Below, one piece after another: positions 23,986 to 62,915 of a stretch of DNA of 64,000 bases. The position numbers and the translations under genes were made by a program. The notes beneath the pieces were generated by a model. That model saw only the letters and a list, made by a program, of their open reading frames with translations. It did no database searches and was not told the origin of the DNA. This stretch comes from Xanthocytophaga agilis. GTDB taxonomy: Bacteria > Bacteroidota > Bacteroidia > Cytophagales > 172606-1. The stretch's first letter is position 1. The number at the start of each line of letters is the position of its first letter. The stretch spans positions 1-64,000 of the forward strand of contig NZ_JASJOU010000025.1 of assembly GCF_030068605.1 (NCBI RefSeq), written 5' to 3'.

Positions 23986-24045
23986 GACAAAAAAGCAGAC
24001 ATTTAGCCACCAGCTTTTAGGAAAAAAAACCAAAGGCTACATTTG
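23986..24045 (+). promoter_or_regulatory. Upstream block and -7 box, RNA unit copy 2
   Basis: GACAAAA-N5-GACA at 23986-24001, then TACATTTG at 24038-24045, with the same 30-base spacing as other copies. Confidence 0.55.
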
Positions 24046-24051
24046 TAATGT

Positions 24052-24241
24052 AGAAGTTGGAAGATTGACTATCTCCAAACATGGTTTATGCACAAACAAA
24101 TTTCAGACAACCCAATGTATCTTTCGTAAGGTATAGGGTTGAAGCAGAAAATGTAAACCTGTGTGAGATGATTTTTTGTAAGTGTTGGATTTAGTATAAT
24201 AAGTCAGAAAGGATACGGCATAATGCTGTATCCTTTCTTTA
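24052..24241 (+). ncRNA. Predicted small RNA, dispersed family copy 2 (divergent)
   Basis: The first hairpin of the family is not recognisable here. The downstream hairpin is strong: GAAAGGATACGGCA / TGCTGTATCCTTTC (24207-24237) followed by TTT. It matches the second hairpin of copies 3, 5 and 6. The transcript would be about 190 nt. Lower confidence because the body is longer and unlike the others. Confidence 0.35.
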
Positions 24242-24769
24242 AGAACCAAATTCGAGTATTGACAGGGACACAAGCTGAATAATGCCTGTTACAAAAGTAT
24301 ACAGCACATAAGATCTGCCATTTTATTCTTACCAGATAATCATCCTTATCAGATTAATCTTCAATTAAAGAATGGTATATAAAGATTGCCATCGGATGGA
24401 AGCCCAATACGTTAATCGAAACTATCTTCAAACAATATTTACAAAGGTGGATTTGCAAAGATAGATTTACTCTCTGAGTTAGTAAAAAATTACCCCAACT
24501 ATCCCTTGCTGGAGAATTGGGGTAAAGCTGATGCTTAATTTTATTCACACTATTGCTCTATATCGATAGATATTTTTTGTTTATAAAAGGTCAAATTTTA
24601 TAAACAATCCTACAAAGGCGGGATGATCCTTTGCTAAAGGATTATATTTACTAAAGAAACATATTGCCCGGTATAATAGTTGGTATTCACTTACCAAAGA
24701 GAGGTATTCAAACTTAATCCTTATCCAACTTGATACTTATCCATTGTACTAACACAATTATAGTAAAGT
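24242..24769. other. Intergenic, no gene seen
   Basis: AT-rich sequence. A 64-codon minus-strand ORF (24354-24548) shows no domain. Confidence 0.3.
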
Positions 24770-25233
24770 TTAATAGTAATAATCAACCACGTATTCCATT
24801 TCAATTCTTTTGTAGAAACCCTTTTTGAGAAAAGAGAACCTGACCATCCCCGCCTCCGGATCAAAAATAACCCTGGAAATAGCCTGAATGTAAAACTTTT
24901 CCTGCCCAATAGGTGTATAGGCAAGCTTGACCTGATAAGATACTTGCTTAATTGGAATGCTTAACAACCTACTTATCAAGGATGGTATAGAAGTCTTATT
25001 TAAAGGAAAGAATATTGCCTTTTCTCAGGAATGAGACCGGTTTTATGGATATAAAATATAGATTGCCTTTCTTTATAGCTTGTAAAAGTAAATACGTTCC
25101 GACTATTTATCTGGTAATGATTTACTGAATAATTTACTGAATAAGTTTGTCCATTGAGGTGTTGTGCTTTTAAGCTGTTCCCATAACAGTACAAACAAGC
25201 AAGCAAAATAATTAATCGTACTGGAAGAAACAT
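24770..25233 (-). pseudogene. Frameshifted small secreted protein
   Basis: The 5' part (25233 to about 25000) encodes a signal peptide (LPVRLIILLACLYCYGNSLKAQ) and a beta-type stretch. A second frame (to 24770) continues with a beta-rich tail (YQVKLAYTPIGQEKFYIQA, ISRVIFDPEAGMVRF, MEYVVDYYY). A single frameshift near 25020 would join them into a protein of about 155 residues. The YSVNYSVN repeat comes from a short tandem duplication. The family is not recognised. Two separate genes are possible but the second has no convincing start. Confidence 0.45.
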
Positions 25234-26201: not shown

Positions 26202-26564
26202 TCAGCATCTGACAATTTTTTTTACACTGGCAAGTAAGGTTTCAACCTGAAAAGGCTTTTGGATAAATACCGTAACTCCTGCCTCGATGGCAGGCCGGTC
26301 TTGATTCGACTTGGTTGAGAGCATAATTACCGGTATATATCTGTAGATGGCGTGTGCTCGGATGGCTTTAACCAGTTCGATTCCATCCATATTAGGCATA
26401 TTCAGATCAGTAATAATTAAATCAAAGCATCGCCCATCCAAATACGTTTGCGCATCTACTCCGTCTTCAGCACTCATAACCAGACATCCTGCTTTTGTGA
26501 GTAGTTTGTCAAGTAAGTTGCGTGAGATTTCAAAATCATCTACTATCAGTATGTTCTTTTTCAT
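26202..26564 (-). CDS. cheY-like: Stand-alone receiver (CheY-like)
   Basis: 120 residues, a single receiver domain. Acidic pair D9/D10, phospho-acceptor D53 (LIITDLNMPNMDG), T/S at STKS and conserved K103 in FIQKPFQ. No output domain, so it should act by protein contact as CheY does, or as a phosphate sink. It lies between the MCP and CheW genes. A close, broken copy sits at 59450-59777 and a more distant intact relative at 59070-59432. Confidence 0.93.
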   Translation of the reverse strand: MKKNILIVDDFEISRNLLDKLLTKAGCLVMSAEDGVDAQTYLDGRCFDLIITDLNMPNMDGIELVKAIRAHAIYRYIPVIMLSTKSNQDRPAIEAGVTVFIQKPFQVETLLASVKKIVRC

Positions 26565-26902: not shown

Positions 26903-28675
26903 CTAGTATTTACAATAGTCTTTGTCAAGAGAATCTTCTTTGAGCGAAAGTTTGACACCTTGTCTGCTAGATTTTGGGGCAACGACAGAGAGCCCAACAG
27001 AGTTACTACTAGTAGCTATACTGTTTTTTGTGAGTTTTTTTTCAGGTTGGGAAAAAGTATGTTCAATTCTAAAAAACATCATGGCTTGTTTGAGTTGCTG
27101 AGCCTGTAAGGAAAGTTCTTCTGCGCTACTGGCCATCTGTTCGGATGAAGCTGCATTCTGTTGTATTACCTGATTGAGTTGTTCGATCGCCTGACTAATC
27201 TGTCCTGTTGCCGAACTCTGCTCCTGACTGGATGCCGATATTTCCTGCACCAGCAAAGAGGTTTTTTGAATACTGGGTACAAGTAGTTCCAATATCTTTC
27301 CTGACTTTTCAGCTGTGGTTACACTTGAACGCGAAATTGCATCAATCTCAGTGGCTGCAAGTTGACTGCGCTCAGCCAGTTTGCGGACTTCGGCTGCAAC
27401 AACGGCAAATCCCTTTCCATGTTCACCCGCTCGTGCAGCTTCCACCGCCGCATTCAAGGCCAGCAGGTTGGTTTGACGGGCTATATCCCCTACAATACCA
27501 ATCTTTGATGCAATATTTTTCATCGAGAAAACCGTATTATTTACAGATTGATTGCCTTCCTCTATTTGGTTGACAGCTGTTAAGGCAATCTTTTTTGTCT
27601 GCTGCGCATTATCTGTATTCTGATCGATATTCGAACACATTTGTTCGATAGAAGTGGATACTTCTTCAATGGAAGCAGCCTGTTCGCTTGCACCCTGGGA
27701 TACTTGTTGAGCAGCTATGCTCATCTGTAAGCTGGCAGCTGCAATTGTATCTGCACCCTGCACGATACTTGCCATCATTTCCTGCAGGCGGATAACCATT
27801 TCACCCAGCGCTGTGTCAAGCTCACCTTCTATTGTATGATTGTGCGTTATGGTCAAATCTCCAGCCGAAACCCGTTTGGCCAGATCTACACTATTTTTCA
27901 GTTTTGCAATCATATATTTTATCTGATCCAGTAAAGTGCCTATTTCATCATCACTATAATCTTCTACTGTTATGGAGAAATTACCGGATGCCAAATGCGT
28001 AATGGCAACATATGCCTGTGTAAGAGATCTTTGCAATGAGGATATAATCCAGTAAATAATACCACAAGCTACTACTACACTGATTCCAATCATAACAAGC
28101 ATATCTCTTTGGCCTTGTGTATATAGAGCTGCCGTTTCCTGGCTGGCATTAACCAATGCAGCTTCATTACGGTTCACTATTTTGTTCATAATGTCTGTAG
28201 CCTGATCGGAAACACGCCTGGTGACGGTTGAAGATAACTTATAGGCTGCCTGATTGCTTGAATCTGTATTCACAATATAAGCCAGATGTTTCACTCTGGA
28301 ATAAAGCCGGATATAGTCTTTCCATACAAGCTGGAACTGCTCAAGCAATTCTTTATCTTGCGGACTGGACAGATTCTGCAATTCTTCAATCCGTTTATTC
28401 ATTTGAGGTGTTCGGGTATCTATGTCCTCAAGACACTCTTCCATTTGTTCCTGGTCCCTGTTAATGATCAAATCCTTTTCCCGCTTGGTAATAAACTGTA
28501 TATCTTCAGCAACCTTGGCAGAAAGGCTGATTAATCTGGCATTGACATGAACAATGTTGTCAACACGGGTATTAAGTGTGTTCAGGTTGCTGTTACCAAG
28601 AAAGAAAATGATAGCTGACAGAAAAAGAAGAAATGTAAAAGCAAGTATGAGTTTAATTTTAATTGTAAAGCGCAT
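26903..28675 (-). CDS. Methyl-accepting chemotaxis protein
   Basis: 590 residues. Membrane helices at about 7-27 and 193-213 bracket a four-helix-bundle periplasmic sensor (4HB_MCP). HAMP follows (about 214-267), plus a second HAMP-like stretch ([20 protein letters not shown]). The signalling domain (about 300-545) has the hairpin tip [20 protein letters not shown] and [15 protein letters not shown]. The C-terminal tail of about 45 residues is basic and has no CheR pentapeptide that I could see. It should signal through a CheW/CheA complex and is grouped with a receiver and CheW. A 13-bp dyad lies 37 bases upstream of its start. Confidence 0.95.
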
Positions 28676-28748: not shown

Positions 28749-29778
28749 AAATGTAGTAAGCCATAAGACTTGGGCTGTCAATGTTTGTCTGTGCCAGCGA
28801 CCATATAGAATGAAAGTATATTCCTGTTTTGACCTTGTGCTCTACCCTGCTATCCAAAACAGGGTCCTAACTGATGCAATCGTGTCAATTTAGAAACTAT
28901 ACATTCTTGTATAGGCGACAAAATTCTTCCTGGAAGATTACAATGATGACAACTCAAAAGCTTAGACTCACTTACTACAAAGCTTTTAATTTATAGAGCT
29001 GCAAAGCAGTTTAGGCAAGCCAAGCGAATCAACTGATTCGTTTGTAGCAGAAGGACTTATAACAGGTCTGCTTGTAGAATGGTTTGTCCCAATTTGGGAT
29101 GGTTGACAAAGTAAAACAGATCTGAGTAAAAGATAATAAAACTGCATAGAGACAAAAAGAGCGACAAGTTGCTTTTTTTCGTTTGCAGGGATAAGCAAAG
29201 AGAAGTACATATCAAAAACGAGCAGTTATCCAGGCATCAATCTGTTGAGTATCAAACTAGACTGGAAGAGTAAAGTAAATTCCCATGTTATATTCATCCC
29301 ATTACTGTCTGCAGATTACCTGAAATATATAATATGATTGCAGGCAAGTCGGAATTTGATAGATGTATTTGTGTATATCTTTTTGTCCTCTTTTTTGTCT
29401 AAAATGGCATGCAAATAATTGAAAATTTTACCATTCGATTACAGATTTTACCTTTGCATTCATTCAACAGGTATGTGTATCTAACCCTAAATTGAATGTA
29501 TACTAAATAGCCGCATAAAGTTTGCCCTACATTTTGGCTGTCTGGCTATACCTGTTACACTCCCTACAGCTGCAAAAAGTAATCTTTTGAACATTGATTC
29601 GTCGATCATCACTTACTATTCACTGATCATCACTTACTATTCACTAGTATGGAGCAGGGTTTATTTCGTATCTTCATTTCCTTTAAAAAGGGTAAAAAAC
29701 ACATTATCGTACCTTTCTGACTAATATTTTATACCTGCAATCACACGGGCTATGTATTGAGTCAGCACATAATCGCAT
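28749..29778. other. Non-coding stretch with two orphan GACAAAA blocks
   Basis: GACAAAA-N5-GACA occurs at 29151-29166 (+) and 29384-29399 (-), neither followed by the -7 box. A 21-base unit GATCATCACTTACTATTCAC(T) is repeated exactly at 29604-29645. A 74-codon minus ORF (28986-29210) has no domain and is not called. Confidence 0.4.
29604..29645. repeat. Exact 21-bp tandem duplication
   Basis: Two adjacent exact copies of a 21-base unit beginning GATCATCACTTACTATTCAC. This is the longest of many such duplications in the intergenic DNA here. Confidence 0.9.
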
Positions 29779-30186
29779 TTATTGTCCATGTTTTACAAAT
29801 AAAGTTGTTAATAGTTGCCTTGTCATCGGTTTGTGTAAGAACTGTCGCACTCTTGGAAAAGTACTTACTTTCTCTTTATCTAAATAGTGAATCGAGCTGC
29901 TTAATATATAAAGTATACAATTATTATTCAGCAAAGAAGGGTTTTCGGATAAAATGGAAAGAAAATCAAAGCCATTTTTATCAGGCATATCCAGATCCAA
30001 AAACATAACCTGGGGTTGCTCAGCCAAAGAGCAAGTGGAAAGAAATCTAATGGCTGCATCAACAGAATTATACACTATTACCGTAGTTACCAATCCAGAA
30101 TGATGCAGCAATTTTTGGGCTATAATTGCATCTACCTCGTTGTCATCTACAACCAGAACAGTTTGAATTTTTTCGAAAATCTTCAT
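29779..30186 (-). CDS. Stand-alone receiver, Rcp1-like type
   Basis: 135 residues from ATG 30186; the longer in-frame start adds an unlikely N-terminus. Receiver features: DD at 14-15, phospho-acceptor D64 (QVMFLDLDMPDKNG), SS at 97-98 and K119 in FLHKPMT. The pattern PQVMFLDL..MP...FDFL.IL..NPSLLN.NCILY is shared with the receiver at 33965-34405, so the two are paralogues of a type often paired with membrane kinases. No output domain. It lies upstream of the MCP group on the same strand but 1.1 kb away. Confidence 0.92.
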   Translation of the reverse strand: MKIFEKIQTVLVVDDNEVDAIIAQKLLHHSGLVTTVIVYNSVDAAIRFLSTCSLAEQPQVMFLDLDMPDKNGFDFLSILSENPSLLNNNCILYILSSSIHYLDKEKVSTFPRVRQFLHKPMTRQLLTTLFVKHGQ

Positions 30187-31415
30187 ATCATTTATTTTAC
30201 AAGCTTGAATTATTAATAAAAACAGATGAATATTCATCTGAACTTTTTATAGTCAGAGTTAAGCTGAACAACTATTTTTTTGGCATTACATAGTATCCTG
30301 TATGTTATAGATAGTTACTATGGATAGCTTCTACAGATAGTCTTTTTCTGAATTGACTAAAGCATTTGTATTGTATAGAACACGTAAGAAACGGTTAACG
30401 GCCATGTAAATGAACGACCATGTAAATGGTCGAAATACCCATGCTTGCAGTAATAAATCACTGCATTTTCGATTTACTTTTGTGGTGATTTCTCAGAGTT
30501 AGAAATGAAGGGTATGCAAATTGATTGCCAGTAAGTTATTACTGCAAGATATCTCCTGGAGTAGTCTTTTTCTCCCATACACATTTACTCACCAGGCCTT
30601 TACTTATATAGAAGAAAACAATTATTATTTACTCAACGAAATAGAAGTGAAAGCAGGGAATTTGTTTAGCAGGCATTCAGCTTACTTAACTAGTGTAATT
30701 TCCAATTATTTCTTCTAGTCAATACGTTTGTGGGTTGCCAAATACTGACCAATTTAACGACTGACCAGTTTCAGGCTATAATAGATTTCCCACTTATCCG
30801 GGTTAGACCATTTCAGAATCTTAAAAGAATATGTTCTCCTCTGACCAGCCAGAAAATTTAAGTAAAGGTAGAACAGTAATCTGAAAAAGAGCAGATAGAT
30901 AATTAGACAAAAAAGAAGACTTATTAAGTTTATCAACTTCCTATTTGAACATAGATATGTCCAATGTTTCACTTGCAAGGTTTCTGATCGCTTGCAGAGT
31001 GTTCATATCTAAATTCATATCTAAAACTTCTAATTAAGATTCACTCAGTTTATATCCGTCCTGTAAGGAAAAAAGTGTGACAGATAATTTTTTGAGACGT
31101 GTTCGGCCAAGCCAAACAAACTCAATACAAACTCAATGTCTCTGCATTTGTCTAGTTAACTAGAGATTGAAATGTAAAGAAGTTTTTTTTGCTTTGCGGC
31201 CTGCAGTTTTCCTACCAAAATGCCGTAAAGTACATGCAAATTTCCCATAAAGGAAATATGCTTAGACAAAACACTATGTATCTGCTTTCTGACCTCAATA
31301 CTATCACACAGCATTTGTATTATCAAATCTGGTTGTTTTTGTGTTTTGACAGCACCTGTTCATAAAAATCTGCAAGTTCAAAATCTATAATCGATGAATC
31401 TAAAATTTTAAAAAG
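30187..31415. other. Non-coding stretch, no gene seen
   Basis: AT-rich with duplicated segments (CCATGTAAATG near 30402-30428, TTCATATCTAAA near 31003-31024). Two short ORFs (30521-30718 +, 30754-30978 -) have no domain or supporting start signal. Confidence 0.35.
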
Positions 31416-31721
31416 ATGGTATACCGCAACCAAAGATTAACTCTGCAGACGATTTTGCAAGAAATAGAACAACAAGAAATAGAACAAATTGAAAGCGGAA
31501 TAATTGATTTAACTATGGTTTTGTCACTTATTGACCAGGCTCGGACAGTTATCGAAACAGCGGGTAGTTCTTCCACAAAAGAAAGAGTTATCTTACACCT
31601 TATACAATCAAAAGAGAATATAGTCAAATACAATGAAGGCAGAGCGGACAAAGAGATGGATTTTATTGATATGACTAATGCTGTGTATGTAACGATAGAA
31701 GCATTTTTATATTTTCTCTAA
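31416..31721 (+). CDS. Small hypothetical helical protein
   Basis: 101 residues, predicted mostly helical and acidic. A short duplication gives EIEQQEIEQIE near residue 20. No signal peptide, membrane segment or recognised domain. The ATG is preceded by an A/T-rich leader as usual in this phylum. An 83-codon ORF lies on the opposite strand. I prefer the plus frame because of its codon pattern and balanced amphipathic helices. Function unknown. Confidence 0.45.
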   Translation: MVYRNQRLTLQTILQEIEQQEIEQIESGIIDLTMVLSLIDQARTVIETAGSSSTKERVILHLIQSKENIVKYNEGRADKEMDFIDMTNAVYVTIEAFLYFL

Positions 31722-31835: not shown

Positions 31836-31895
31836 GACAAAAGAATGGACATCTGTTGTTACAACATTACCATATAGATTATACAAATACCTTTG
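31836..31895 (+). promoter_or_regulatory. Upstream block and -7 box, RNA unit copy 3
   Basis: TATAGACAAAA-N5-GACATCTG (core 31836-31851), then TACCTTTG at 31888-31895 after the conserved 30-base interval. Confidence 0.65.
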
Positions 31896-31901
31896 TGTCA
31901 G

Positions 31902-31986
31902 AGTGCCCTCCTCTAAGGACATATCTAATTATGTATTCAAACAAGTTGTGTTGTAAAAGTTGCTGTAACATACAGCAACTTTTCTT
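31902..31986 (+). ncRNA. Predicted small RNA, dispersed family copy 3
   Basis: Ends in hairpin AAAAGTTGCTGTA / TACAGCAACTTTT (31955-31983), preceded by GTTGTGTTG, a segment shared with copies 4 and 5. A second hairpin (GAAAGG..TACTACA / TGTAGTAGCCTTTC, 32019-32049) follows, as in copies 5 and 6. About 85 nt to the first terminator. Confidence 0.6.
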
Positions 31987-32049
31987 GTAATTATTTGGGT
32001 TTAAAGTATAACTAATCCGAAAGGTTACTACATTTTGTAGTAGCCTTTC

Positions 32050-33225
32050 TTTCTTAAAAGAACATCCTATTGAGAAAATGATAGCTTATCCCAGTATATT
32101 GTCGGATAAGTTATGATTTTAGATAAATTATCATTTGTGCCTGAATCTGTATCCTATTGCTACCTTTATCTGTTAAATATGAAAAGATAGAAAATGATAG
32201 TTAGGCAGTTACTCTACCATATATATTAGCTTCATACTCGCTGCTTCAGGTTTACCAGCTTATTGTGCTGATTGGCTTAACCCTAATCAAACTTCTCCTG
32301 GCGTTTTTGTTTCTATCGGTCATACCCAGTCATTCCAAATGACTATCCTATCCGACCTGTATATTCTTTTCGATAAAGCCTAATGTACCCAGATCTCTTT
32401 ATATCCGTTGTCAGCTTACTAGTATGGGCTTGATATGAGCGTGACATAGTTCTTTCTTACTAAGGTAATCCATCGTATTAATCAGGCATATTCTGTATCT
32501 CAGACTTCTGCTTAACAGGAGCCCGATAGGATATAGATATAAATACCTGTAAATACATTGTTTCCTCTGTAGATACATTGGCAGATACATAGTTTCCCCA
32601 GAGATGATGTACTCTCTTTTGTCTATATACCGTGCTAACATCCTATCCCAGCTTGTTGGTAGATTTGCATCCTATTTTACTTGTCGATTCACTTTATATA
32701 TGGATTCTATATTTTGTTAAAAACAGTAGTTTAACAGTAGTAATTTCAAGCGATCCTTCTAAGAGCTTCAAGCAGATTTACATTAATACAATAGTTTGGA
32801 GTAGTTTGAATCACTATGGAGAGAACAATTCTTACACAAGACCCTACCATATGATGCTGAGCGTTCATTAAATCTAGTAGAGAAAACGCTTAAAAAGGAT
32901 TTCTGATCCTAAACGGTAGGGCGAACACTGAGGATTGATTCATTTGAAAGAAAATTGAATTTGCATCCATGATACAAAACCTTTTCAGCTAGAAATATTG
33001 CCGGCAAATACAAGCAAAGTCTTCAATAAAGGTATGATTAACTCAATGTTTGAATTTTTATGAGAAATTGAAATTAGAACTTTTGAAAATATAGCTAAAT
33101 AAGATCGAATCCAATACCAAGTCTCTTCTATCCTACCATAGGGCAGTAAAGGGTCTGTTGATCGCACTAGCAGAGGCTAGTTTATTAATAATAAGGACAA
33201 TTTTGAATCTACCTATTGATTTAGT
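32050..33225. other. Non-coding stretch, no gene seen
   Basis: AT-rich. Short ORFs on both strands (32411-32641 -, 32632-32871 +, 32985-33167 -) lack domains. A near-match to the GACAAAA block occurs at about 32600 on the minus strand (second half TACA). Confidence 0.35.
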
Positions 33226-33723
33226 ATGAGTACAGTGCCAATAAAAAGGCAATCCTATCTTTCTTTTAACTTAGGTGAGGAAAAATTTGCCACTAATGAA
33301 TTAAGAGTAAGAGAAGTATTGAAAGTAACCAAAATTACTATTGTTCCTGACACTCCTCCCTTTGTCAGAGGCATAACCAATCTGAGAGGAATGATTATGC
33401 CAGTAATTGATACCCGCATAAAATGTGGAATGGTTTCAGTACCAACTACACAGGATAGTTGCCTACTAGTACTGACAATTACAAAAAGCAATGAAAAGCA
33501 AAGTGAGTTTATTACCATCGGCGCATTGGTGGACTCAGTTATAGAAGTGTTTGAAGCAGATCAGCATCAGATTAAATCTTTGCCAATTATTAACTCTGAA
33601 TACCAAGACAAGTTCATTCAGGGCACTTTCAAAATTGGAGATGACTTTATTATGTATCTGAATATAGACGAGCTTTTCTCCTTGGATGAAAAGGAGAACC
33701 TTTCCCATTTAGGATTACAATAA
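33226..33723 (+). CDS. cheW-like: CheW-like coupling protein (second)
   Basis: 165 residues, one CheW domain: YLSFNLGEEKFATNELRVRE, VPDTPPFVRGITNLRGMIMP, VIDTRIK, then FITIGALVDSVIEVFEADQH and DFIMYLNIDELFSL. It retains the NLRG turn typical of CheW, whereas its paralogue at 25541 has HLDG. The two are clearly related over their length. A stand-alone receiver gene follows 241 bases downstream, repeating the CheW/receiver pairing of the first group. Expected role: receptor-kinase coupling at polar or membrane arrays. Confidence 0.92.
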   Translation: MSTVPIKRQSYLSFNLGEEKFATNELRVREVLKVTKITIVPDTPPFVRGITNLRGMIMPVIDTRIKCGMVSVPTTQDSCLLVLTITKSNEKQSEFITIGALVDSVIEVFEADQHQIKSLPIINSEYQDKFIQGTFKIGDDFIMYLNIDELFSLDEKENLSHLGLQ

Positions 33724-34742: not shown

Positions 34743-34803
34743 GACAAATAAGAAGACATCTGTATATACAGCTGTAAGTTTACCTGGCAATATGCTAGCT
34801 TTG
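34743..34803 (+). promoter_or_regulatory. Upstream block and -7 box, RNA unit copy 4
   Basis: GACAAAT-N5-GACA (34743-34758; one mismatch to the consensus), then TAGCTTTG at 34796-34803 after 31 bases. Confidence 0.65.
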
Positions 34804-34809: not shown

Positions 34810-34888
34810 AGTCCATACAGTGCATTTAGGTTACATTCCCAAATTAGTTGTGTTAGAAAAGTTGCTGTATGTTACAGCAACTTTTTTG
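34810..34888 (+). ncRNA. Predicted small RNA, dispersed family copy 4
   Basis: Body includes AGTCCATACA, shared with copy 6, and AGTTGTGTTAG before the terminator. Terminator stem AAAAGTTGCTGTA / TACAGCAACTTTT with loop TGT (34857-34885), then T run. About 79 nt. This is the cleanest copy. Confidence 0.65.
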
Positions 34889-35008
34889 AATAATAAGTTT
34901 GTAAGTACTAAGTTTTTGGGTATAAACTCATCTAGTTGTCTGTATTGACGCATCTAATAAGAACAAAAGACCTTTTTAATATAAACGATTTCTGATTAAA
35001 TACTTACT

Positions 35009-53501: not shown

Positions 53502-53534
53502 AAAAAAGGTATAGTCATAAACTATACCTTTTTT
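53502..53534. terminator. Bidirectional terminator of the second GAF/PAS gene
   Basis: 14-bp perfect stem AAAAAAGGTATAGT / ACTATACCTTTTTT with a 5-base loop, about 70 bases after the gene's stop codon. The A/T flanks allow it to work on either strand. Confidence 0.85.
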
Positions 53535-53601
53535 ACTCTCTCATTTTAACTACGTAACTAATACCAACTTTAAATCCGAGTAATTATTTCTGAGTAATTA
53601 T

Positions 53602-55326
53602 TCAGGACTGACTAGAAAATGCAGTGACTTTCTGGGCAAATTTAATAATCCGTACTACTGTATTCTCCAGATCGAATACAGGTGTATAACTGGCATTTAA
53701 CAACATACATTCCCCGGCATATGTGATACGTTCTACCTCCCCTACCTGAGCTACTCCCTGTCTGAGCTCTTCCCAAAACTGAGTATACTCTTTTGTTTGC
53801 CTGTAATCGGGATTGACCAAAATCCGGTGATGTTTACCTTGAATCTGTGAGAGGGTATACCCCATTAAATGTAAAAAGTTATCATTGGCAGAAATAACAT
53901 AGCCATTCCTATCGAATTCAATGGTAGCAAGCGTTGAGTTAACTGCTGCAGATAATGCGTGCAGCTGCTTGCTCTGTCGTTCGATTTCCTCCTGAGTTGA
54001 AACTAATTCCTCCATGTTTTGCCGCAACTCTTCTTCCTGAGCACGCAACTCTTCTACTTGTTGTTGAGAAAAAATTTCAAGTTCTTTCTGACGGGTAATG
54101 TCATTGGCCAGTTTAATCACTTTTGTATACTTTCCATCCCTGTCTTTCACAGGAGCATAAGAGACCTGCATCCAGATTGATTGTTGATCTTTGGAATAGC
54201 GAACTACCTGTCCCATAAAGACATTACCGTTTTGAAGGTTTTGCCAGAATTGGATGTAGTCTGCCGATTGTGCATACAGCGGGTCAACAAAGATCCGATG
54301 ATGTTTTCCTCTGATTTCTTCTGAGCGGTAGCCCATAGCCAGAAGAAAGTTTTCATTGGCCTCCAGTATATTTCCCTGCATATCAAATTCGATGCTGGCA
54401 AATGTATTGGTAACAGTTTGAAAAGCCAGGAGCAGATTTTGAGATTCTATTTCTCTCCGCCTGACTTCTTCCTGGCTGGCAGCAAGTTCTTCCAGGTTTT
54501 GCTTGAGCTCTTCCTGCTGTGCTTTTAATTCTTCGGTTTGTTGTTGAGATTGCAACAGCAATTGTTGAGTTTGCTGATGAACCCGGTTTGAAGAAATACT
54601 GGAGGCAATACTTTCTCCCAGCTTTTCAATAAATTCGATCTGATAGGAATAAAATAGATTAAATGATGCCAGTTCTACAATAGCCAGAACCTGTTCATTA
54701 AGCTTGAAAGGAATCAATACCAAACTACGTGGGTTTGCATCTCCCAAGCCAGAGGTTATCGATATATAATTAGCAGGGATATCAGTCAGATGTATGCTTT
54801 CAGCCTCCAGATAACATTGCCCAACAAGCCCTTCTCCGATTTGTATTGTCTGTTCTGTGTATTTTTTACGATCATAGGCATAACAGGCCACCTGTCTTAA
54901 AAACTGAGCTGGCCTATTTTGCTCAATATCCACAACAAACAAACTACCTTGATTGGCCCCTATGTATTTTACCAGACTGGCCAGCAGTATATCATACAAG
55001 GAGGCATTATTTTGTTGATCACGCAAAATGTCTGTAAAATAGGCTAGTCCTTCACTTGCCCATTTCCTCTGGTTCTCCTGCAGGGCGATAGCTTTCATTT
55101 GTTCCCGCATCTGCATCAGTGAGCAAGCCAATGAATCGGCTTGCTGAGGAAAATCGGTTTTATCATCTTTTAAACCAGGATAAGCAAGTGTAAGATTGCC
55201 TTCCTGTATGGCTTTAATAAATCGAAGCGCATTGCTAATTTGGCTTTGAGCTACTGTAAGTTGTTCTGAAGCTGAATAAAGTCTTTTTAACTGATTTGAT
55301 TTAATAATTGTAAACATGTTCATCAT
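53602..55326 (-). CDS. Cytoplasmic GAF/PAS sensor without output domain
   Basis: About 574 residues from ATG 55326 (MMNMFTIIK). The longer ORF start at 55425 adds a basic stretch with no clear role. An N-terminal helical HAMP-like region is followed by GAF at about 105-250 (KYIGANQGSLFVVD, YAYDRKKYTEQTIQIGEGLV, TSGLGDANPRSLVLIPF), a Gln/Glu-rich coiled coil (QSQQQTEELKAQQEELKQNL), PAS 1, a second coiled coil (QQVEELRAQEEELRQNMEEL) and PAS 2 (NSTLATIEFDRNGYVISAND). No membrane helix. GAF, coiled coil and PAS 2 match those of the sensor at 36743-39085. No output domain, so it probably acts as a scaffold or feeds a partner kinase. Confidence 0.82.
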   Translation of the reverse strand: MMNMFTIIKSNQLKRLYSASEQLTVAQSQISNALRFIKAIQEGNLTLAYPGLKDDKTDFPQQADSLACSLMQMREQMKAIALQENQRKWASEGLAYFTDILRDQQNNASLYDILLASLVKYIGANQGSLFVVDIEQNRPAQFLRQVACYAYDRKKYTEQTIQIGEGLVGQCYLEAESIHLTDIPANYISITSGLGDANPRSLVLIPFKLNEQVLAIVELASFNLFYSYQIEFIEKLGESIASSISSNRVHQQTQQLLLQSQQQTEELKAQQEELKQNLEELAASQEEVRRREIESQNLLLAFQTVTNTFASIEFDMQGNILEANENFLLAMGYRSEEIRGKHHRIFVDPLYAQSADYIQFWQNLQNGNVFMGQVVRYSKDQQSIWMQVSYAPVKDRDGKYTKVIKLANDITRQKELEIFSQQQVEELRAQEEELRQNMEELVSTQEEIERQSKQLHALSAAVNSTLATIEFDRNGYVISANDNFLHLMGYTLSQIQGKHHRILVNPDYRQTKEYTQFWEELRQGVAQVGEVERITYAGECMLLNASYTPVFDLENTVVRIIKFAQKVTAFSSQS

Positions 55327-56403
55327 ATTGGGGGTTAATAATAATTTAATGCGCCAAACCAAAGTAACCTGCTTGTCTTTTATGGTATTAAATTGTATCT
55401 GTTCTCTGGCAGTAAATCTGTACAATAGATTTATTGTATAGTAGATTTATTGTATAGTAGATTCTGATAAAAGGTGTATAGTTAGAATAATCAATTAAAG
55501 TTGCATAGTGGCAAGTCTGATCAAATCGCTTTTATCAGAAAGTTGACAGATCTTCCGATCTAACTTATAAAACTGTGTCCTGCCTGGATTATGCTCTTTA
55601 ACAAGGTATATTCTATTTGTAAGCACATTGGCTCTGTGCATAACTCCTGCTTTAAAGAAGGCCATATGACAGGCAGAACTATATAGTTCAGAATTATATA
55701 TTCCAACTCCTTTTCTTGAGGGAAAACGATTTTACTACCATTAATCATTGATAGATAGTATGGAAGTAAAAATCGCAGATTAAATGTAAGTGGTAATAAA
55801 GCATCCTTTTACCCTTGGTAAGATGCTTCATTTTCTAGAGTCTTACCAACCAGATCTGGGCATTATACGGGACATTATACGGGATCCTTTCTGCTTATAC
55901 AGGGTTCATTCTTACTGATAATACCAAAGACAGGTTGATAATACCAGTTTTTGTTTAAGCGAAAACCGAACCTGACAAAATTAGGTGAATAGCACTAGAA
56001 ACAGGATAAGTAATGCAGGACAAATACAGAGACAAGTGTTATTTGTCTACAAGGTAGCTCTTGAGCAAACCATGAATCAAGATGTTAGTGTAAGACTGTC
56101 CATTTACTGTCCACTTCTTCACTTACTGTTTTAGTAGCCATTAATGGCTCTATAGTAAATAACTTTAGTTAATAGTTAAGCAGTTAGTTGATTCAATCTG
56201 TTTGTGTTGTATGTATACCATCTGCTGGATGTAACTTTCAGGATGTATACTTTTCAGAGGAATATAAAAGCAACACAGACATAACTTGTCTTTACTTTTT
56301 CTTACATACGAAAACCACGCAGGACTATGCCAACCATGCAGAGAGTATTTTTTAAGGAGTATTCTTTAAGGAGCAGCTTTCCTATTTCTTTGGTAAACAG
56401 TAG
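55327..56403. other. Non-coding stretch with duplications and a hairpin
   Basis: TAGATTTATTGTATAG occurs twice and partly a third time at 55426-55463, in the leader of the GAF/PAS gene. CATTATACGGGA occurs twice at 55861-55884. A hairpin AAGCATC...GATGCTT spans 55799-55829. No gene is supported; the minus ORF 55560-55748 is doubtful. Confidence 0.4.
55799..55829. terminator. Possible hairpin terminator
   Basis: Stem AAGCATC / GATGCTT continued by TTTACC / GGTAA. It lies in non-coding DNA with no clear gene to terminate. Confidence 0.35.
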
Positions 56404-56733: not shown

Positions 56734-57068
56734 ATAATTGTAAAGAAATCAGATACTACTCAAAAGGCGATGACAGGGTTTTCTCTTACTGGCTAAAAGT
56801 AAGATAACGAATTTATACCTGTGACTTTTCAACTAAAATCTAGTATAACTTTCTTATACAGAAACAGATAATGTAACATTTTTCGCTAGCGCATTTCTCC
56901 TTCTTTTGGCTAAGATAATTGTCTCAAACCATATTTTGCCAGATACATTTTATTACGATTCATTTGGCATAATAAGAGTTGAAAAAGAAGGATTAAAAAA
57001 GAATACCACAAGATGCAGTATTCTTTCTAAGAAGCTAGATGAGCTTAATTATTCATAAACCCGTTTTC
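56734..57068. other. 3' flank of RNA unit copy 5
   Basis: Contains the second hairpin of the unit on the minus strand (GAATAC...GTATTC, 56998-57026), followed on that strand by a T run. No gene. Confidence 0.4.
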
Positions 57069-57165
57069 CAAAAAAGTTGCTCTAACATACAGCAACTTTT
57101 CCAACACAACTAATTAAGAAATGTAACTTATACCAAACGCTGTGTTATAATTGCTGTGTTATAGT
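57069..57165 (-). ncRNA. Predicted small RNA, dispersed family copy 5
   Basis: Minus-strand copy. Hairpin AAAAGTTGCTGTA / TAGAGCAACTTTT (57072-57100, one mismatch), preceded by AGTTGTGTTGG as in copies 3 and 4. The body is longer (about 97 nt) because of a 14-base internal duplication of a TATAACACAGC-type unit. Without it the spacing equals that of copies 4 and 6. Confidence 0.6.
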
Positions 57166-57171
57166 TGAATA

Positions 57172-57232
57172 CAAAGTTATACTATCCCCACTTAGAGTAA
57201 TAGCTGCATATACAGATGTCTCATTTTTTGTC
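57172..57232 (-). promoter_or_regulatory. Upstream block and -7 box, RNA unit copy 5
   Basis: On the minus strand: GACAAAA-N5-GACA (57217-57232), then TAACTTTG (57172-57179) after 31 bases. Confidence 0.65.
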
Positions 57233-59069
57233 TATAAGAAATAGGATAGATTACCAAAGTGGACATACTCCATCTTCTATGCATCCATCGTTAATCATGC
57301 TGTAGTTAATCGTGCTGTAGTTAATCGTGCTGTTGATTTAAGATTTTCCAATTATGGAAAGGAAGCAAATGAACCAGATACGAATTATATCTCCCATTTT
57401 CTCTTGCATCCAAAACAACAGTCTAGCCTTATTGCTCCAGCCTGAGAATTTTCTATAGTTTAAGAATATAGATAATCTGAGATTCGGCAAAATTCATCTG
57501 TTCATACAAACCAGCAATGTAAAATAAATAAAATCATTTCTCTTTATGTTTCAGTGGGCCACTTTAAAGGCAAGCACTCAATTTGAGATATAAACTTTTT
57601 ATGATTGGGTTATAGCCGACTGACAGCAAAGTCTGATCAGGTAGGAATAATGATTGTTTAACCACCTGTGGAGAAATGTATTTTATTAAATGTATTTTAT
57701 TGAAGCAGTTAAAATGAGCTACTGTCTGCATTGTGCTGCAATAAAGCAGACTTTACTATTCTATACAGAACCTTACAAAGCATGGGGAAATTCGGCAACT
57801 AACGGGGAAAAATTCAGTAAATATTCTTAGAAAAGTTTTACAACAATCTGTTCAAATAAAAGGGAAGCATAGTTCTATCACCTTCTTGCTAAACTATAGA
57901 CAAAATAGATGACATTTAATAATAGTAATAAATACCTATATAAATACAGACAAGATTCTGATATTGGATCTGAGTACTTTTAGATAGTACTAAAAGAAGT
58001 TATAAAAAAAAATAGATCACAAATGGTAAGTAAACATTGTAATCCCTGACGTTTTTGTAAAATAAGTTGAATTATTTCACGATTTGCATAACACATTTCC
58101 TGAGAATATTTCAATAAATACAGCAAGTTGCTTTGTCATTCTTTTTGTCACTTTACAAGATAAGTAGTATTCTATTTTATTGTATTTACTTTGTTTAAAA
58201 TCGCACCTAAGCCTAGCGAATTAACCCAAAACAGAGATTCTAACAACAATGAACAGATATATTGTACTGTTGTTTGTTATTAGTTGAGAGGTTAATTCCA
58301 ATGAAAAAATGGTATCTTAAAATTTTAAAGTTATCGGTATTTTCTAAAAAGAGAACAATTTTATCTATTGATATGATTTTAACAAATCAGTCAAATGCAA
58401 GAATCAATCTCGATAGGATTTTTCTAACGCTCATCTATTTAGCATATACTTATGCAACTACCAGATCTGAGCCCAGCAGTATAAATCAATATCCATACGT
58501 AAGGTAATCTTGATTCACACTGTTATAAAAATAATAGTGATATAAATTTATTTTATGTATTATTTATACTTAAAAATATTTCGTTCATTAATTACACCTT
58601 TTCAATTCTATGCATTTACTACGTAGACTAAAACTAATTATAGTTCTTACTTTTTTATCCATCTGTGTTGATCTTTTGACTTAGCCCTACTGCTAGTAGT
58701 ATACGGATAGTAGTATACGAAATATCTATGGCAATGAAAGTGCAGGTAGCAATGCCAGTTAGCAATGCCAGGAAACAAGCTTATCAGCCGAAGACATGTA
58801 ATTAAGCAAGAAAAAACAGTCTTTCTACAAAGAGCGCAATAAAACTAATCTTATAAATATGCACAAATCTTTCAAAAATCATATAACCATTCAACTCTAT
58901 AAATAAACTATATGAATAGGTGATGGATTAAAAAAAGGATAGCTACAATTAAAATAACAAGGGTCTATACCTAAACAAACTAATCTTTAGTCAACTATCA
59001 AATTATAACTATCGGTATAAAAAAAGGTCACAAAAGATAATTCTCTATAATTTTTTGCATTACAACTCC
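57233..59069. other. Long non-coding stretch
   Basis: Includes TGCTGTAGTTAATCG repeats (57298-57333), an orphan GACAAAA-N5-GACA at 57899-57914 and TAGCAATGCCAGT twice (58747-58772). An ORF at 58262-58507 has a poor start and no domain. Nothing else is supported. Confidence 0.35.
57298..57333. repeat. 15-bp tandem repeat, two copies plus partial
   Basis: TGCTGTAGTTAATCG twice exactly, followed by TGCTGTT and preceded by a related GTTAATCA. Confidence 0.85.
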
Positions 59070-59432
59070 ATGAAAAAAACAATTCTTTTAGTTGACGACG
59101 AAGTTATCAGTCGTACCATACTCACTTTTATACTCCAACGAGAAGGATATCAGGTCTTAACAGCGATAGATGGTCTAGATGCACAAGGCCATTTGCAAGG
59201 AAAAAGCATTGATCTGATAATAACCGATCTGAATATGCCCAATATGGATGGAATTACCTTAATTGGAGAGATCCGGATTCGGGATGCCTATAAATACACC
59301 CCCATTGTCTTATTTACTTCAGAATCTGAATGGCAGAAAAAGAAAGCCATAGAGGCTGGCGCTAATGGGTCAATAGACAAGTCCTTTCAAACAAAACAGA
59401 TACTTACCACAATTAAAGCCATGATAAATTAA
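59070..59432 (+). CDS. Stand-alone receiver (CheY-like)
   Basis: 120 residues from ATG 59070; the earlier in-frame ATG adds only MHYNS. Acidic pair D9/D10, phospho-acceptor D53 (LIITDLNMPNMDG), T/S in LFTSES and K104. The usual KPF is changed to DKSFQ, so the Lys-Pro pair is partly altered. It is most similar to the receiver at 26202-26564 (same LIITDLNMPNMDG block). No output domain. A broken close copy of the 26.2-kb receiver follows directly. Confidence 0.9.
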   Translation: MKKTILLVDDEVISRTILTFILQREGYQVLTAIDGLDAQGHLQGKSIDLIITDLNMPNMDGITLIGEIRIRDAYKYTPIVLFTSESEWQKKKAIEAGANGSIDKSFQTKQILTTIKAMIN

Positions 59433-59449
59433 TAAAAATCATTACTCAA

Positions 59450-59777
59450 ATACAGAAGCATATTCTTACCGTAGATGATGATTACCCGTAACATACTCAA
59501 CAAACTACTCACAAAAGCAGGATGTCTGGTTATGAGTGCTGAAGACGGAGTAAATGCGCAAACGTATCTGGATGGACGCTTTTTTAATTTAATCATACCC
59601 GATCTGAATATGCTTACTATGGATGGAATCGAACTGGTTAAAGCCATTAGAGCGCACGCCATCTACAGATATATACTGTTAATTATGATCTCAACCAAGT
59701 CGAATCAAGATCGGCCTGCCCTCGAAGCAGGAGGTACTGTTTTAATCAAAAGCCTTTTCAGGTTTAATCCTTACTAG
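59450..59777 (+). pseudogene. Decayed recent copy of the 26.2-kb receiver gene
   Basis: The central part is nearly identical to the receiver at 26202-26564, at protein level (KLLTKAGCLVMSAEDGV, MDGIELVKAIRAHAIYRYI) and at nucleotide level. A frameshift near 59475 separates the start (HILTVDD) from the rest, and a second near 59755 destroys the conserved KPF Lys-Pro. The residue before the phospho-acceptor Asp is changed from T to P. The orientation is opposite to the parent, 33 kb away. It should not make a working receiver. Confidence 0.8.
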
Positions 59778-59975: not shown

Positions 59976-60371
59976 ATGAAGTCAATACTCAAAAGGCCAA
60001 TAGTAAGAACTATTATGTTAAGATTATGGAGCATTTCAGAAACATCTGTAACTGTTTTTATAATTTATCTGAGCCCTGAGATGTTTATTGAAGTAATCCT
60101 TATGTGTTTTATACTATGGATAAACGTGATATTTTTCTATTTAAGTAAAAGGATGCTGCATTCATTCATCAAGGTAATGAATGCAGTACTATTCATAGGT
60201 GCATTCTTTTGTTTACTAGTTTTACTTCTGGTCATGTTTGCTTTAAATCTCTGGATGTTTAGTTTACTGCTTTCTTTGCTTTTACCACTACACCTATTTG
60301 TTTTTTATCACTCTATCCAAACAGACACTTGCATAAGAAAAGCCTTTGTTTTATGGAATGACGAGAAATAA
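59976..60371 (+). CDS. Hypothetical four-helix membrane protein
   Basis: 131 residues with about four hydrophobic helices (SVTVFIIYLSPEMFIEVILM, CFILWINVIFFYL, VLFIGAFFCLLVLLLVMFAL, LLLSLLLPLHLFVF) and a short cytoplasmic tail. No recognised family. Basic residues at the N-terminus suggest the N-in orientation. It lies alone after the decayed receiver with no operon partner. Confidence 0.6.
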   Translation: MKSILKRPIVRTIMLRLWSISETSVTVFIIYLSPEMFIEVILMCFILWINVIFFYLSKRMLHSFIKVMNAVLFIGAFFCLLVLLLVMFALNLWMFSLLLSLLLPLHLFVFYHSIQTDTCIRKAFVLWNDEK

Positions 60372-61331
60372 TCAAATAGTATCATAATCTAAAATACTAT
60401 AGAAGTAAACCTAATAAGAATTAAACTCATGTATAGTCATACGAGATGTACCCACAAATACGCTGTATTTACTAAAGTAAATCTACGGCAAAGAGTAGAT
60501 CTTTTTATATAAATACTAGCCCCTGTGTCTTTGTTTTTAGAAAACCTTTTGGCGGTTTGAAAACAGAAAGGTTTGTTTAAATAACAGACTATGATCAGTC
60601 TTTTATGTAAAAGAAAGATTTATTCACAATATGTGAGAAGAAACGAAAATGCCATTAGTATAGTCAAACGGTGGTCTGGTTTAAATGTTGCGAATTGAAA
60701 TCAAGTTGTGAATAGAATTCGACAATCCAGTCAGCAATACATTATTAATTACCTGCAGGGCACACTATTGTATACTTCTACTTTCGGTATTGTATGCTTC
60801 AATGTTAAGTATTTATTATTTCTATCGAAAATCTTAAACAAAACTAGCCTTACAAAGGTTTAGTAGTATGTTAAATAACTCCAAATACAACTGACAATAA
60901 TAAGATCACTAGTCCTGAATGACAGATCTTACTTTGTTGATTGTTATAATCAATTTATTTTCTTTCTCTATTAATCTGTATTGAAATAAAATACGAAGTG
61001 TTAGTCAGATAAATAAGAGAACCAGTTGATTAGGCGAGATCTCTACAAAAAATATCCCATATCCAATATAAAGGGTTCAATAGAGGAACAACCTCTAAAG
61101 GATGTTGTGCGCTAAATTCCTGACTAAACCGATCGTTTTGAATTTTAGCAAAGCTAGTCATTAAACATACTATAAAAGATCAATGTAATTCTATTTCTGA
61201 ATAGATTATACGCAGTTTCGTGTGTCCGACTGTATGCTTTTGCCAATACCAGAGGGTAAGCTTTGTATTATATTTCGTATTCGGATAGATTTTAGAAAAT
61301 TTTATATTAAGTAATCCTTGTTATAAGTAAA
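60372..61331. other. Non-coding stretch, no gene seen
   Basis: AT-rich 960 bases before the sensor-HTH gene. It must contain that gene's promoter, but I could not assign a box. Confidence 0.35.
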
Positions 61332-62615
61332 ATGTTAAAACACGTTAGAGAAAGCTTCCTTTCAAAACATATCCTTTCTGCAAGCATTACAATCATTACC
61401 TTACTTCTGGCCTCGGATATTTTCATTACTTATTTCAACCATCAGGTGATGAAAGAAAATATTTTACGCCAAAATCAGGCAGAAAATGTCAAATTAGCCG
61501 TTTCTCATGCCATCTATTTGATCCATAATGCTGACTTGGCATTACGCGGATATGCTGCTTTTGAAGATACAACCTATCTTCCACCGCTTCGATTCGCCAT
61601 TGAAGATAAAGACTCGATTTACCATACTATTGAACAACCACTTCTCGATCAATATTATCCTTTGACTGAATTTGTTCTTTTAAAGGATTCGATCAATGTT
61701 TATCTGAACGAATGTCAGCAGATGAAGTCTTTGATTGAAGAAAAAAAATATATAGAGGTAAAAAAATGGTCTGCTCAAGCAAAAGGGTATCATTTATGGC
61801 TACAGTATAAGCGTTTTAAAAATCATATTGATCAGTTTCAGGACCAGGTAAAATCAGACGCACGCAGCGAATTTGATACAGCCATGCAGATCAATTACTG
61901 GATTGAAGCTGCGTTGCTAATGCTTTGTGTCCCTATTCTGGTACTTACTGCTGTTTTTGCACATAAACAACTGATAACAAGTCATAAACTGCAGCAGATT
62001 GAAGCACAAAACTCGCAATTGCTCTGCGAACAAAAAACTAAGTTGGAAGAGATGGTAATCCAGCGCACACAACAAATTCAACTACAAAATCACCAATTAA
62101 AAGAACAGCATGAACGTATCTTTCGGCAAAAAGAGCAATTAGCTATACAAGGGGAGGAACTTGCTCTGCAGTTTGAAGCATTGAAGCAATCCAAAAAAGA
62201 AAAGTTACAAGCTTATGCGCGAATTATTCAGGAGAAAACAATTACAATTGAAACAATTAAACAAGAGTTGGAGAAGGTAAGAAAAACACAGGTATGGGAT
62301 ATGCTTACCGACACAAACTTCAATAATTTATTGCATGCCCGCATTCATACAGAAGAATCCTGGCAACAGTTTAAAATTAACTTTGATGCAATTTATCCTA
62401 ATTTTTTTGCTAAGCTTCGTCAGCAATATCCAGATGTAACCTCAGCAGAACAGCGATTGGCGGCTCTAATTAAACTGAACCTATCTTCAAAAGAATGTGC
62501 TGACACACTAGGCATTAGCATAATTAGTGTTAGAAAAGCACGTTACCGACTTCGTAAAAAATTGCAAGTTGAAACTTCTGTATCACTTGAGGATTTTATT
62601 CAAACATCCTTCTAA
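61332..62615 (+). CDS. Membrane sensor fused to a C-terminal HTH
   Basis: 427 residues. Helices at about 16-34 and 193-212 enclose a helical periplasmic domain of about 155 residues (CHASE3- or 4HB-like). A long coiled coil follows (about 230-330, QQIQLQNHQLKEQHERIFRQ). The C-terminus (about 340-427) has FFAKLRQQYPDVTSAEQRLA and ALIKLNLSSKECADTLGISI, then SVRKARYRLRKKL. This is the LuxR/sigma-4-like HTH seen at the end of many Bacteroidota TPR and sensor proteins. A membrane-tethered DNA-binding regulator without phosphotransfer parts is implied. Whether it binds DNA while anchored is unknown. Confidence 0.85.
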   Translation: MLKHVRESFLSKHILSASITIITLLLASDIFITYFNHQVMKENILRQNQAENVKLAVSHAIYLIHNADLALRGYAAFEDTTYLPPLRFAIEDKDSIYHTIEQPLLDQYYPLTEFVLLKDSINVYLNECQQMKSLIEEKKYIEVKKWSAQAKGYHLWLQYKRFKNHIDQFQDQVKSDARSEFDTAMQINYWIEAALLMLCVPILVLTAVFAHKQLITSHKLQQIEAQNSQLLCEQKTKLEEMVIQRTQQIQLQNHQLKEQHERIFRQKEQLAIQGEELALQFEALKQSKKEKLQAYARIIQEKTITIETIKQELEKVRKTQVWDMLTDTNFNNLLHARIHTEESWQQFKINFDAIYPNFFAKLRQQYPDVTSAEQRLAALIKLNLSSKECADTLGISIISVRKARYRLRKKLQVETSVSLEDFIQTSF

Positions 62616-62854
62616 ATCTTTTTTTGCCTTGTTTAAATCTAACATCTACTTTAAGATAAGTTGGTGTATATATAGCTGAATATATATAGCTGATCAACTT
62701 ACTCAATAGCAATAAGATTATGTAAGGAATATCTTATTCTGTTTTTATATCTTTCTAAATTAAATTGACTACCGACTACCCATAAACATCTAAAATCCAC
62801 CACGAAGCTTATAGACAAAATGTTCCATCTTAGGCTTTCCTCCTACTTCTTATA
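62616..62854. other. Spacer before RNA unit copy 6
   Basis: Contains a short duplicated TATATATAGCTGA (62667-62692). No gene. Confidence 0.3.
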
Positions 62855-62915
62855 GACAAAAGGTAAGACATCTGTATACGTAACAGTGACTTTAACCAGT
62901 AATAATATAGCTTTG
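62855..62915 (+). promoter_or_regulatory. Upstream block and -7 box, RNA unit copy 6
   Basis: TATAGACAAAA-N5-GACATCTGTATA (core 62855-62870), then TAGCTTTG at 62908-62915 after 31 bases. Confidence 0.65.

Follow-up and report, generated by a model that had tools for sequence, protein, structure and literature searches.

Here we describe a short DNA element, GACAAAA-N5-GACA (the block), in a 64,000-nucleotide (nt) stretch of the Xanthocytophaga agilis genome. A validation list places the genus in the order Cytophagales. This stretch, hereafter the window, comprises bases 1-64000 of contig NZ_JASJOU010000025.1 (C25; 71746 bases, 71.7 kb) in a 9.77-Mb genome (G000). The block is clustered on C25 and stands, in either orientation, at a fixed distance from a promoter box. 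It is probably the upstream activator site of a locus-restricted Xanthocytophaga regulon, and the likely binder is a membrane protein encoded in the locus itself, with a CHASE3-like region and a helix-turn-helix (HTH) domain. The block consists of two GACA words with a period of 12 bp, approximately one helical turn. A sequence-only reading of the window had proposed a direct-repeat site, probably factor-bound and used beyond a set of small RNA units. Our analysis supports this, with the wider use extending to this island and its sister loci and not to the genome as a whole.

The position of the block relative to the core promoter is constant. The TAnnTTTG box (-7 box), which passages of a study of Flavobacterium psychrophilum (PMC9723704) place at -12 to -5, occurs on either side of the block: at forward sites it follows after 36 or 37 nt, and at the others a reversed box stands 34-36 nt before the block. 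Among the 14 exact sites on C25, chosen by block alone, an exact box lies at a gap of 34-37 nt in nine and a box with at most one mismatch in 12. A weight matrix trained on 21 C25 sites, some of them picked for having a box, gave 24 sites at a score of at least 16. Ten exact forward boxes lie within 150 nt of these sites, eight of them at a gap of 36-37 nt, and ten exact reverse boxes, seven of them at 35-36 nt. An exact box at a gap of 34-37 nt is present at 14 of the 24 sites, against 0.11 for displaced positions, and a box with at most one mismatch at 19, against 2.3 (0 of 2000 trials reached either count); both counts include an ambiguous site at 22285-22300 and rest on a matrix partly trained on box-picked sites. 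With the ambiguous site set aside, there are seven forward and eleven reverse promoters, and five sites are box-less (Table 1). The box is exact in 13 of the 18 promoters and has one mismatch in the other five, the box having been a criterion for listing, and 16 of the 18 lack a TTG 15-23 nt upstream of it. If the box is at -12 to -5, as in those Flavobacterium passages (PMC9723704), the block would lie at about -65 to -47. A fixed distance of this kind, here kept in both orientations, is as for an upstream activator site. Scans for sigma-70-type promoters in three stretches gave 62, 66 and 48 hits, with no excess over shuffles (61, 74 and 46); terminator-like sites in three stretches numbered 18, 8 and 5 against 10.7, 11.9 and 5.9 in shuffles, an excess confined to 19-38 kb.

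Six sites had previously been read as lacking the box. Four of these (29151, 39368, 42231 and 52051) have it reversed on the other side at a gap of 35-36 nt, with one mismatch at 29151, and the remaining two, 29384-29399(-) and 57899(+), are truly box-less, each of them facing a box-bearing block from about 250 bp upstream.

The window holds 13 exact copies of the block, compared with a mean of 0.04 and a maximum of 1 in 100 dinucleotide shuffles, and 24 sites with at most one mismatch (shuffle mean 1.81, largest 8). All six sites to which the sequence-only reading had given coordinates exist (29151+, 29384-, 39368+, 42231+, 52051+ and 57899+). Its total of eleven exact sites and one with a mismatch fits if the RNA-unit sites, for which it gave none, are those at 19624, 23986, 31836, 34743 (one mismatch), 57217-57232(-) and 62855. 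It overlooked two exact sites, at 58134-58149(-) and 22285-22300(-), as well as four one-mismatch sites that behave like the rest (30906(+), 31137-31152(-), 32608-32623(-) and 56019(+)), and its range of 23986-62870 leaves the site at 19624 outside. Genome-wide, the exact block occurs 21 times in 9.77 Mb and the reversed pattern, used as a control, 44 times. The strong enrichment that had been claimed is thus present in the window relative to shuffles; on a literal reading of the genome-wide count that was to refute it, it is refuted. The non-random features of the block are its fixed position relative to the -7 boxes and its clustering on C25, which makes up 0.73% of the genome and holds 14 of the 21 exact copies (13 in the window, the 14th at contig position 70900). 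None of the 24 strong matrix sites of C25 falls within our list of credible coding regions, coding sequence being 51% of 19-71.7 kb; the earlier placement of the sites in non-coding DNA holds to this extent, with 22285-22300 lying in a decayed coding remnant. When block and box were sought together with at most one mismatch (reverse gap 35 or 36, forward gap 36), 14 of the 16 matches in 9.77 Mb were on C25, the ambiguous site being counted twice.

Elsewhere in the genome there are seven exact blocks. Five lie inside open reading frames (ORFs) of 114-870 amino acids (on C1, twice on C3, on C19 and on C20) and were set aside; two are non-coding, one on C13 with a one-mismatch box and one on C21 without a box. 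The latter, at C21:120467-120482 (L054 7468), has no good -7 box, and its 16 letters recur in the sister species G001 on contig C62; those of a sister block on C63 are likewise identical to those of a C3 block. Among further sister blocks, those on C1, C8 and at C13:124443 fall within ORFs of 253-743 amino acids, and that at C13:128955 is non-coding, with a T-run serving as a one-mismatch box.

The block is also conserved. The sister species is 93-97% identical to C25 over long aligned stretches, and 22 of the 24 sites have an ortholog in the stretches compared. Between the two species 1 of 242 fixed block letters differs, and 0 of 110 N5 letters. In the flanks 200 of 3520 positions differ; the ambiguous site, which sits at the margin of an alignable stretch, accounts for 54 of these, and without that site the flank count is 146 of 3360. 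The sole fixed-letter change is in the box-less block at 29384-29399. A reverse-composite search of 395 genomes of the class, G001 not among them, gave eight matches against six for the reversed control, four on C25 (one at the ambiguous site) and one in each of four other genomes; no second carrier clade was found in these 395 genomes. In a related genus, the nearest relative (L053) is without a strong block.

Forward and reverse blocks differ in what lies behind them. A covariance model built from six RNA units detects an RNA family body behind all seven forward promoters. In the genome, where 150 of 5134 first-look candidates were scored, the model has 17 matches at E up to 1; seven of these are below 1e-5, and all seven lie behind forward blocks, including the body at 24118-24244, which was not used in building the model. 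The weaker matches are mostly to the opposite strand of the same hairpins, with additional ones on C29 (E 0.02) and C11 (E 0.3). Five hairpin pairs have changed on both sides, compared with 1.8 in shuffles (3 of 500 shuffles reach five), and 97% of alignment cells are paired, the alignment comprising six sequences and the structure having been derived from it. Across 39 genomes, with 88 candidates scored in each, matches at E up to 0.001 occur only in G000 (seven) and its sister (eight). No Rfam family reached its gathering score in the window, and a scan of the window for tRNA genes found none.

The next coding region after a forward promoter is on the opposite strand in three of seven cases and, in the other four, on the same strand 434-3417 nt away. 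These assignments follow a coding-sequence list of our own choosing. The ORFs at 20220-21139 are not on it; the first of them begins 532 nt downstream of where the 19624 unit is expected to start. Pairing between the RNAs and the leaders, assessed for unpaired stretches of four of the seven RNAs against 11 leaders and 10 controls with 30 shuffles each, showed no consistent excess; for the 5' part of the RNA at 66168, z was no higher than -2.0 in 5 of the 11 leaders and in 1 of the 10 controls, a difference that we do not take as a result. A weak RNA-model match (E 0.005) at 53471-53556(-) lies just past the end of the GAF-PAS gene 53602-55425(-), and is perhaps a terminator hairpin only.

For all eleven reverse promoters, by contrast with the forward class, the next coding region on the same list lies on the transcribed strand. 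The genes so placed encode a chemoreceptor, a CheW protein, receivers, GAF/PAS sensors, histidine kinases and a large protein with a Por-secretion tail; targets beyond the window include a receiver at 67707 and a second kinase at 69932, named by similarity. Leader lengths range from 34 to 857 nt. The sequence-only reading had suggested that sites outside the RNA units might be the surviving parts of broken ones. Although RNA units and other sites have the block in common and lie within one island, a local search covering the window and stretches near it found no RNA-model match in any reverse-promoter leader (weak matches, E 0.005-0.9, lie elsewhere). Each reverse block moreover has a box of its own, spaced as in the forward class, and is directed at a protein gene, and the sequence TCTGT follows six of seven forward blocks and none of the eleven reverse ones. 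We regard such an origin as hardly credible. The forward class itself may stem from the copying of one ancestral RNA unit together with its promoter, in which case the association of orientation with RNA (7 of 7) and protein (11 of 11) promoters need not be mechanistic.

Table 1. Blocks, small RNA bodies and candidate regulator genes on C25. Gaps are in nt between block and -7 box; positions above 64000 are contig positions outside the window.
Feature	Position	Strand	-7 box	Gap	Remarks
Forward block (RNA promoter)	19624-19639	+	TAGCTTTG 19676-19683	36	
Forward block (RNA promoter)	23986-24001	+	TACATTTG 24038-24045	36	
Forward block (RNA promoter)	31836-31851	+	TACCTTTG 31888-31895	36	
Forward block, one mismatch (RNA promoter)	34743-34758	+	TAGCTTTG 34796-34803	37	
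Forward block (RNA promoter)	57217-57232	-	TAACTTTG 57172-57179	37	
Forward block (RNA promoter)	62855-62870	+	TAGCTTTG 62908-62915	37	
Seventh forward block	66168	-			outside window
Small RNA body	19696-19816	+			behind block 19624
Small RNA body	24118-24244	+			behind block 23986
Small RNA body	31930-32056	+			behind block 31836; two hairpins
Small RNA body	34832-34951	+			behind block 34743
Small RNA body	56990-57125	-			behind block 57232
Small RNA body	62945-63084	+			behind block 62855
Reverse block	29151-29166	+	29107-29114 (minus), one mismatch	36	chemoreceptor 26903-28675(-)
Reverse block, one mismatch	30906-30921	+	30863-30870 (minus), one mismatch	35	receiver 29779-30237(-)
Reverse block, one mismatch	31137-31152	-	31189-31196 (plus), one mismatch	36	101-amino-acid ORF 31416-31721(+)
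Reverse block, one mismatch	32608-32623	-	TAGATTTG 32660-32667	36	CheW 33226-33723(+), then receiver 33965-34405(+)
Reverse block	39368-39383	+	TAACTTTG 39324-39331 (minus)	36	GAF-PAS protein 36743-39085(-)
Reverse block	42231-42246	+	TAGCTTTG 42188-42195 (minus)	35	PAS histidine kinase 40042-41697(-)
Reverse block	52051-52066	+	TAACTTTG 52008-52015 (minus)	35	1923-amino-acid Por-secretion-tail protein 46151-51922(-)
Reverse block, one mismatch	56019-56034	+	TAATTTTG 55976-55983 (minus)	35	GAF-PAS protein 53602-55425(-)
Reverse block	58134-58149	-	58186-58193 (plus), one mismatch	36	receiver 59055-59432(+)
Reverse block	66915	-			outside window
Reverse block	70900				outside window
Block without -7 box	29384-29399	-			248 bp from 29151, which it faces from upstream of the promoter
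One-mismatch block without -7 box	42483-42498	-			faces 42231 at 267 bp
Weak one-mismatch block without -7 box	52603-52618	-			567 bp from 52051, which it faces
Block without -7 box at gap 34-37	57899-57914	+			faces 58134-58149 at 250 bp
Block without -7 box	66703				outside window
Ambiguous exact block	22285-22300	-	exact on both sides		inside decayed Rhs-like remnant; boxes imperfect in sister; not in promoter list
Candidate regulator	61332-62615	+			two hydrophobic segments around CHASE3-like region, long helix, C-terminal NarL/LuxR-type HTH
Paralog of candidate regulator	64321-65640				just outside window

Several blocks come in pairs. Five pairs are less than 350 bp apart, at 212, 246, 248, 250 and 267 bp, and all five face each other; random placement in non-coding DNA gave a mean of 0.35 facing pairs at 200-280 bp, and none of 5000 trials reached five. 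In four pairs one member is boxed and the other box-less; in the fifth (30906/31152) both members have one-mismatch boxes, with promoters pointing in the two directions. As for the strong sites without a box, all five are found upstream of a box-bearing site and are turned towards it. The pair distances show no clean helical phasing, and cooperative binding or looping between the paired blocks is a natural guess from this arrangement. The facing orientation would also suit blocks that form the terminal repeats of a small mobile element whose promoters point outward, each pair marking the element's two ends. Yet no repeat of at least 25 bp links the inter-block stretches of the four in-window pairs, most blocks are single, and both the sites and their order recur in the sister species, so that we think an element of this kind exceedingly improbable.

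A different role for the block, as a repressor operator or an architectural site, would be in keeping with facing pairs 212-267 bp apart, which look like looping operators, and sequence alone cannot separate activation from repression. In all 18 promoters, however, the block stops about 47-50 nt short of the expected start, on its upstream side, and is always clear of the -7 box; this position and the lack of a TTG near -33 in 16 of the 18 both fit activator-dependent promoters. We consider repression or architecture unlikely, and take the block to act, probably, as an activator site.

The element in turn points to a candidate for its binder. Each of the four loci holding a close paralog of the island's HTH protein also holds exact blocks. 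The two island copies are 47% identical to each other, and paralogs 49-51% identical to the product of 61332-62615 are encoded on C13 and, in the sister species, on C9 and C44. C13 and C9 each have one exact block, with a one-mismatch box at a gap of 34 nt, upstream of genes for a receiver, a 401-amino-acid protein and the HTH protein, in that order; the C13 receiver scores below the Pfam cut-off. On C44 three exact blocks with exact boxes at gaps of 35, 35 and 34 nt precede a receiver, a BLUF-domain protein and a kinase-like ORF. The BLUF protein (L051 11227-11652), a blue-light sensor, thus has its own block and exact -7 box, a hint that light may be one input of the system. In a comparison of ORFs of at least 90 amino acids with ATG starts, the protein families common to C25, C13 and C44 were the HTH protein and the receiver. 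Beyond these, C25 shares with C44 a kinase (72% identical over 109 amino acids) and a weak PAS match, and with C13 weakly similar SusC, SusD, FecR and sigma genes, which in C25 lie at least 7 kb from the first block.

Structure prediction agrees with a DNA-binding role for this protein. The model of the long-helix protein has a mean predicted local distance difference test (pLDDT) score of 74, and that of the HTH domain a score of 91. Foldseek relates the modelled domain to those of LiaR, VraR, NarL and DegU with a probability near 1.0, at E-values of 0.06-1 and none below 0.05; for LiaR and VraR the template modelling score is 0.80 over the target, and the best solved-structure match by sequence is StyR (E 0.022). 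By fold, then, the candidate binder appears to carry an HTH domain of the NarL/LuxR type. LytTR regulators, a comparison raised by the sequence-only reading, do not fit. Their sites are two 9-bp repeats about 21 bp apart, the repeat period here is 12 bp, and no LytTR domain occurs in the 39 distinct proteins scanned with Pfam, a subset of the ORFs.

A number of observations weigh against an activator site bound by this protein, whose identity as the regulator rests on co-occurrence in two close species. Its Pfam GerE match is below cut-off, as is the CHASE3 match in two of the four paralogs, the other two being unmatched. Weaker relatives of the HTH protein (for example on C6, 30% identical over 239 amino acids) have no exact block nearby. 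With regard to the site, the bare block is not enriched genome-wide, the coding block on C20 has a one-mismatch box, and block-box composites with two mismatches show no excess (11, 14 and 11 against 13, 19 and 22 for reversed controls). The five strong C25 sites 29399-, 42498-, 52618-, 57899 and 66703 have no box, the conservation test is limited to two close species that are 93-97% identical, and leaders are long in several cases, so that unseen promoters could drive those genes.

Two further observations tell against the candidate and also favour another binder: neither island HTH gene has its own reverse block within 1 kb upstream, and the non-coding blocks on C21 and at C13:128955 in the sister species lie far from any known HTH paralog (none is on C21 among the protein matches listed). 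The binder might instead be a different regulator, such as the response regulator of the OmpR type at 16252-16986 or a factor encoded elsewhere, with the CHASE3-like/HTH proteins only travelling alongside. Regulators of the OmpR type recognise direct repeats of about 10-12 bp, and the one at 16252-16986 and a kinase lie 2.6 and 1.2 kb to the left of the first block. However, the ORFs listed for the unlinked block loci L050 and L051, which include the HTH protein and the receiver, contain no relative of it; on that listing an OmpR/PhoB-type regulator does not accompany every block locus. Another binder has, in our view, a real but minor chance of being correct, and the locus-encoded CHASE3-like/HTH protein is the candidate we carry forward.

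Other features of the window deserve brief mention. The ambiguous block at 22285-22300 is contained in a decayed minus-strand reading frame (21692-22500) with several stops, Rhs-like by eye. About 2.2 kb (20061-22242) is absent at the matching position in the sister; G+C content reaches 47.5% over 20001-22000, the window as a whole having 37.7%, and the segment holds two ORFs without a Pfam match (20600-21139 and 21174-21665). The receiver genes 26202-26564 and 59475-59777, in opposite orientation, are 88% alike over 272 nt; the second covers only positions 10-90 of the 111 in the receiver profile and is perhaps a fragment. A short tandem array of 15-bp units occupies 53228-53283, and reading frames at 18560-19246 and 35009-36134 resemble broken transposase pieces, as judged by eye from their translations.

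We propose the following general mechanism. A dedicated activator would bind both GACA words, about one helical turn apart, and recruit sigma-A RNA polymerase to promoters that mostly have no recognisable -33 TTG, with the block able to act in either orientation at 34-37 nt before the -7 box. Forward blocks would drive the seven sibling small RNAs, and reverse blocks the genes for the chemoreceptor, CheW, receivers, GAF/PAS sensors, histidine kinases and secreted protein, the predicted regulon consisting of one signalling island and one or two sister loci. The most likely activator would be the CHASE3-like membrane protein with its NarL/LuxR-type HTH domain, which may sense an envelope signal, and the stand-alone receiver and kinase encoded with it would perhaps tune its activity. 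More tentatively, the block may be the private code of a self-contained island. An envelope-sensing membrane activator, CHASE3-like and NarL-type, would use an asymmetric site either way round at one distance, looping at some promoters with a facing site about 250 bp upstream. Chemosensory genes and seven RNAs would be switched on together, and orientation would separate RNA from protein promoters. We see this extended scheme as possible and still rather doubtful.

Passages of one source (PMC2245950) describe DegU acting from a direct repeat at -70 to -52 of Bacillus subtilis aprE, and NarL sites occurring as direct, single, inverted or divergent motifs. To the extent of those passages, our system resembles DegU/NarL-type activators in HTH fold class, direct repeat, position just upstream of the promoter and variety of site arrangements. 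It differs from them in that the candidate regulator has two hydrophobic segments and a CHASE3-like region with no receiver of its own, and in its motif, its Bacteroidota-type promoters and the confinement of the regulon to one island and sister loci. The promoters are like those of Bacteroidota sigma-A in their exact or one-mismatch TAnnTTTG box; unlike them, most lack the upstream TTG and have the block at a fixed distance instead. Sibling small RNAs under one activator are familiar as Qrr in Vibrio and RsmY/RsmZ in Pseudomonas. The island likewise has several related small RNAs behind the same upstream site, with the difference that here the site also serves protein-coding sensor genes; no sequence relation to those RNAs is known.

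Overall, the system would be a variant of the direct-repeat activator sites of NarL/LuxR-type regulators, and to our knowledge little is known of activator sites in Bacteroidota outside polysaccharide loci. Literature searches, in a collection lacking most subscription papers, turned up no account of it, and no title among those listed deals with a CHASE3 protein of the LuxR or membrane-bound transcription-factor kind. One element, readable by eye, would define a regulon in which a multi-copy family of small RNAs is joined to receptors, kinases, receivers and a secreted protein; the same element points to a candidate regulator. With one HTH domain, one 16-bp site and about eighteen promoters, this is a testable circuit in a little-studied genus, and an asymmetric site used in both orientations at one distance would offer a simple test case for the contact between an activator and RNA polymerase.

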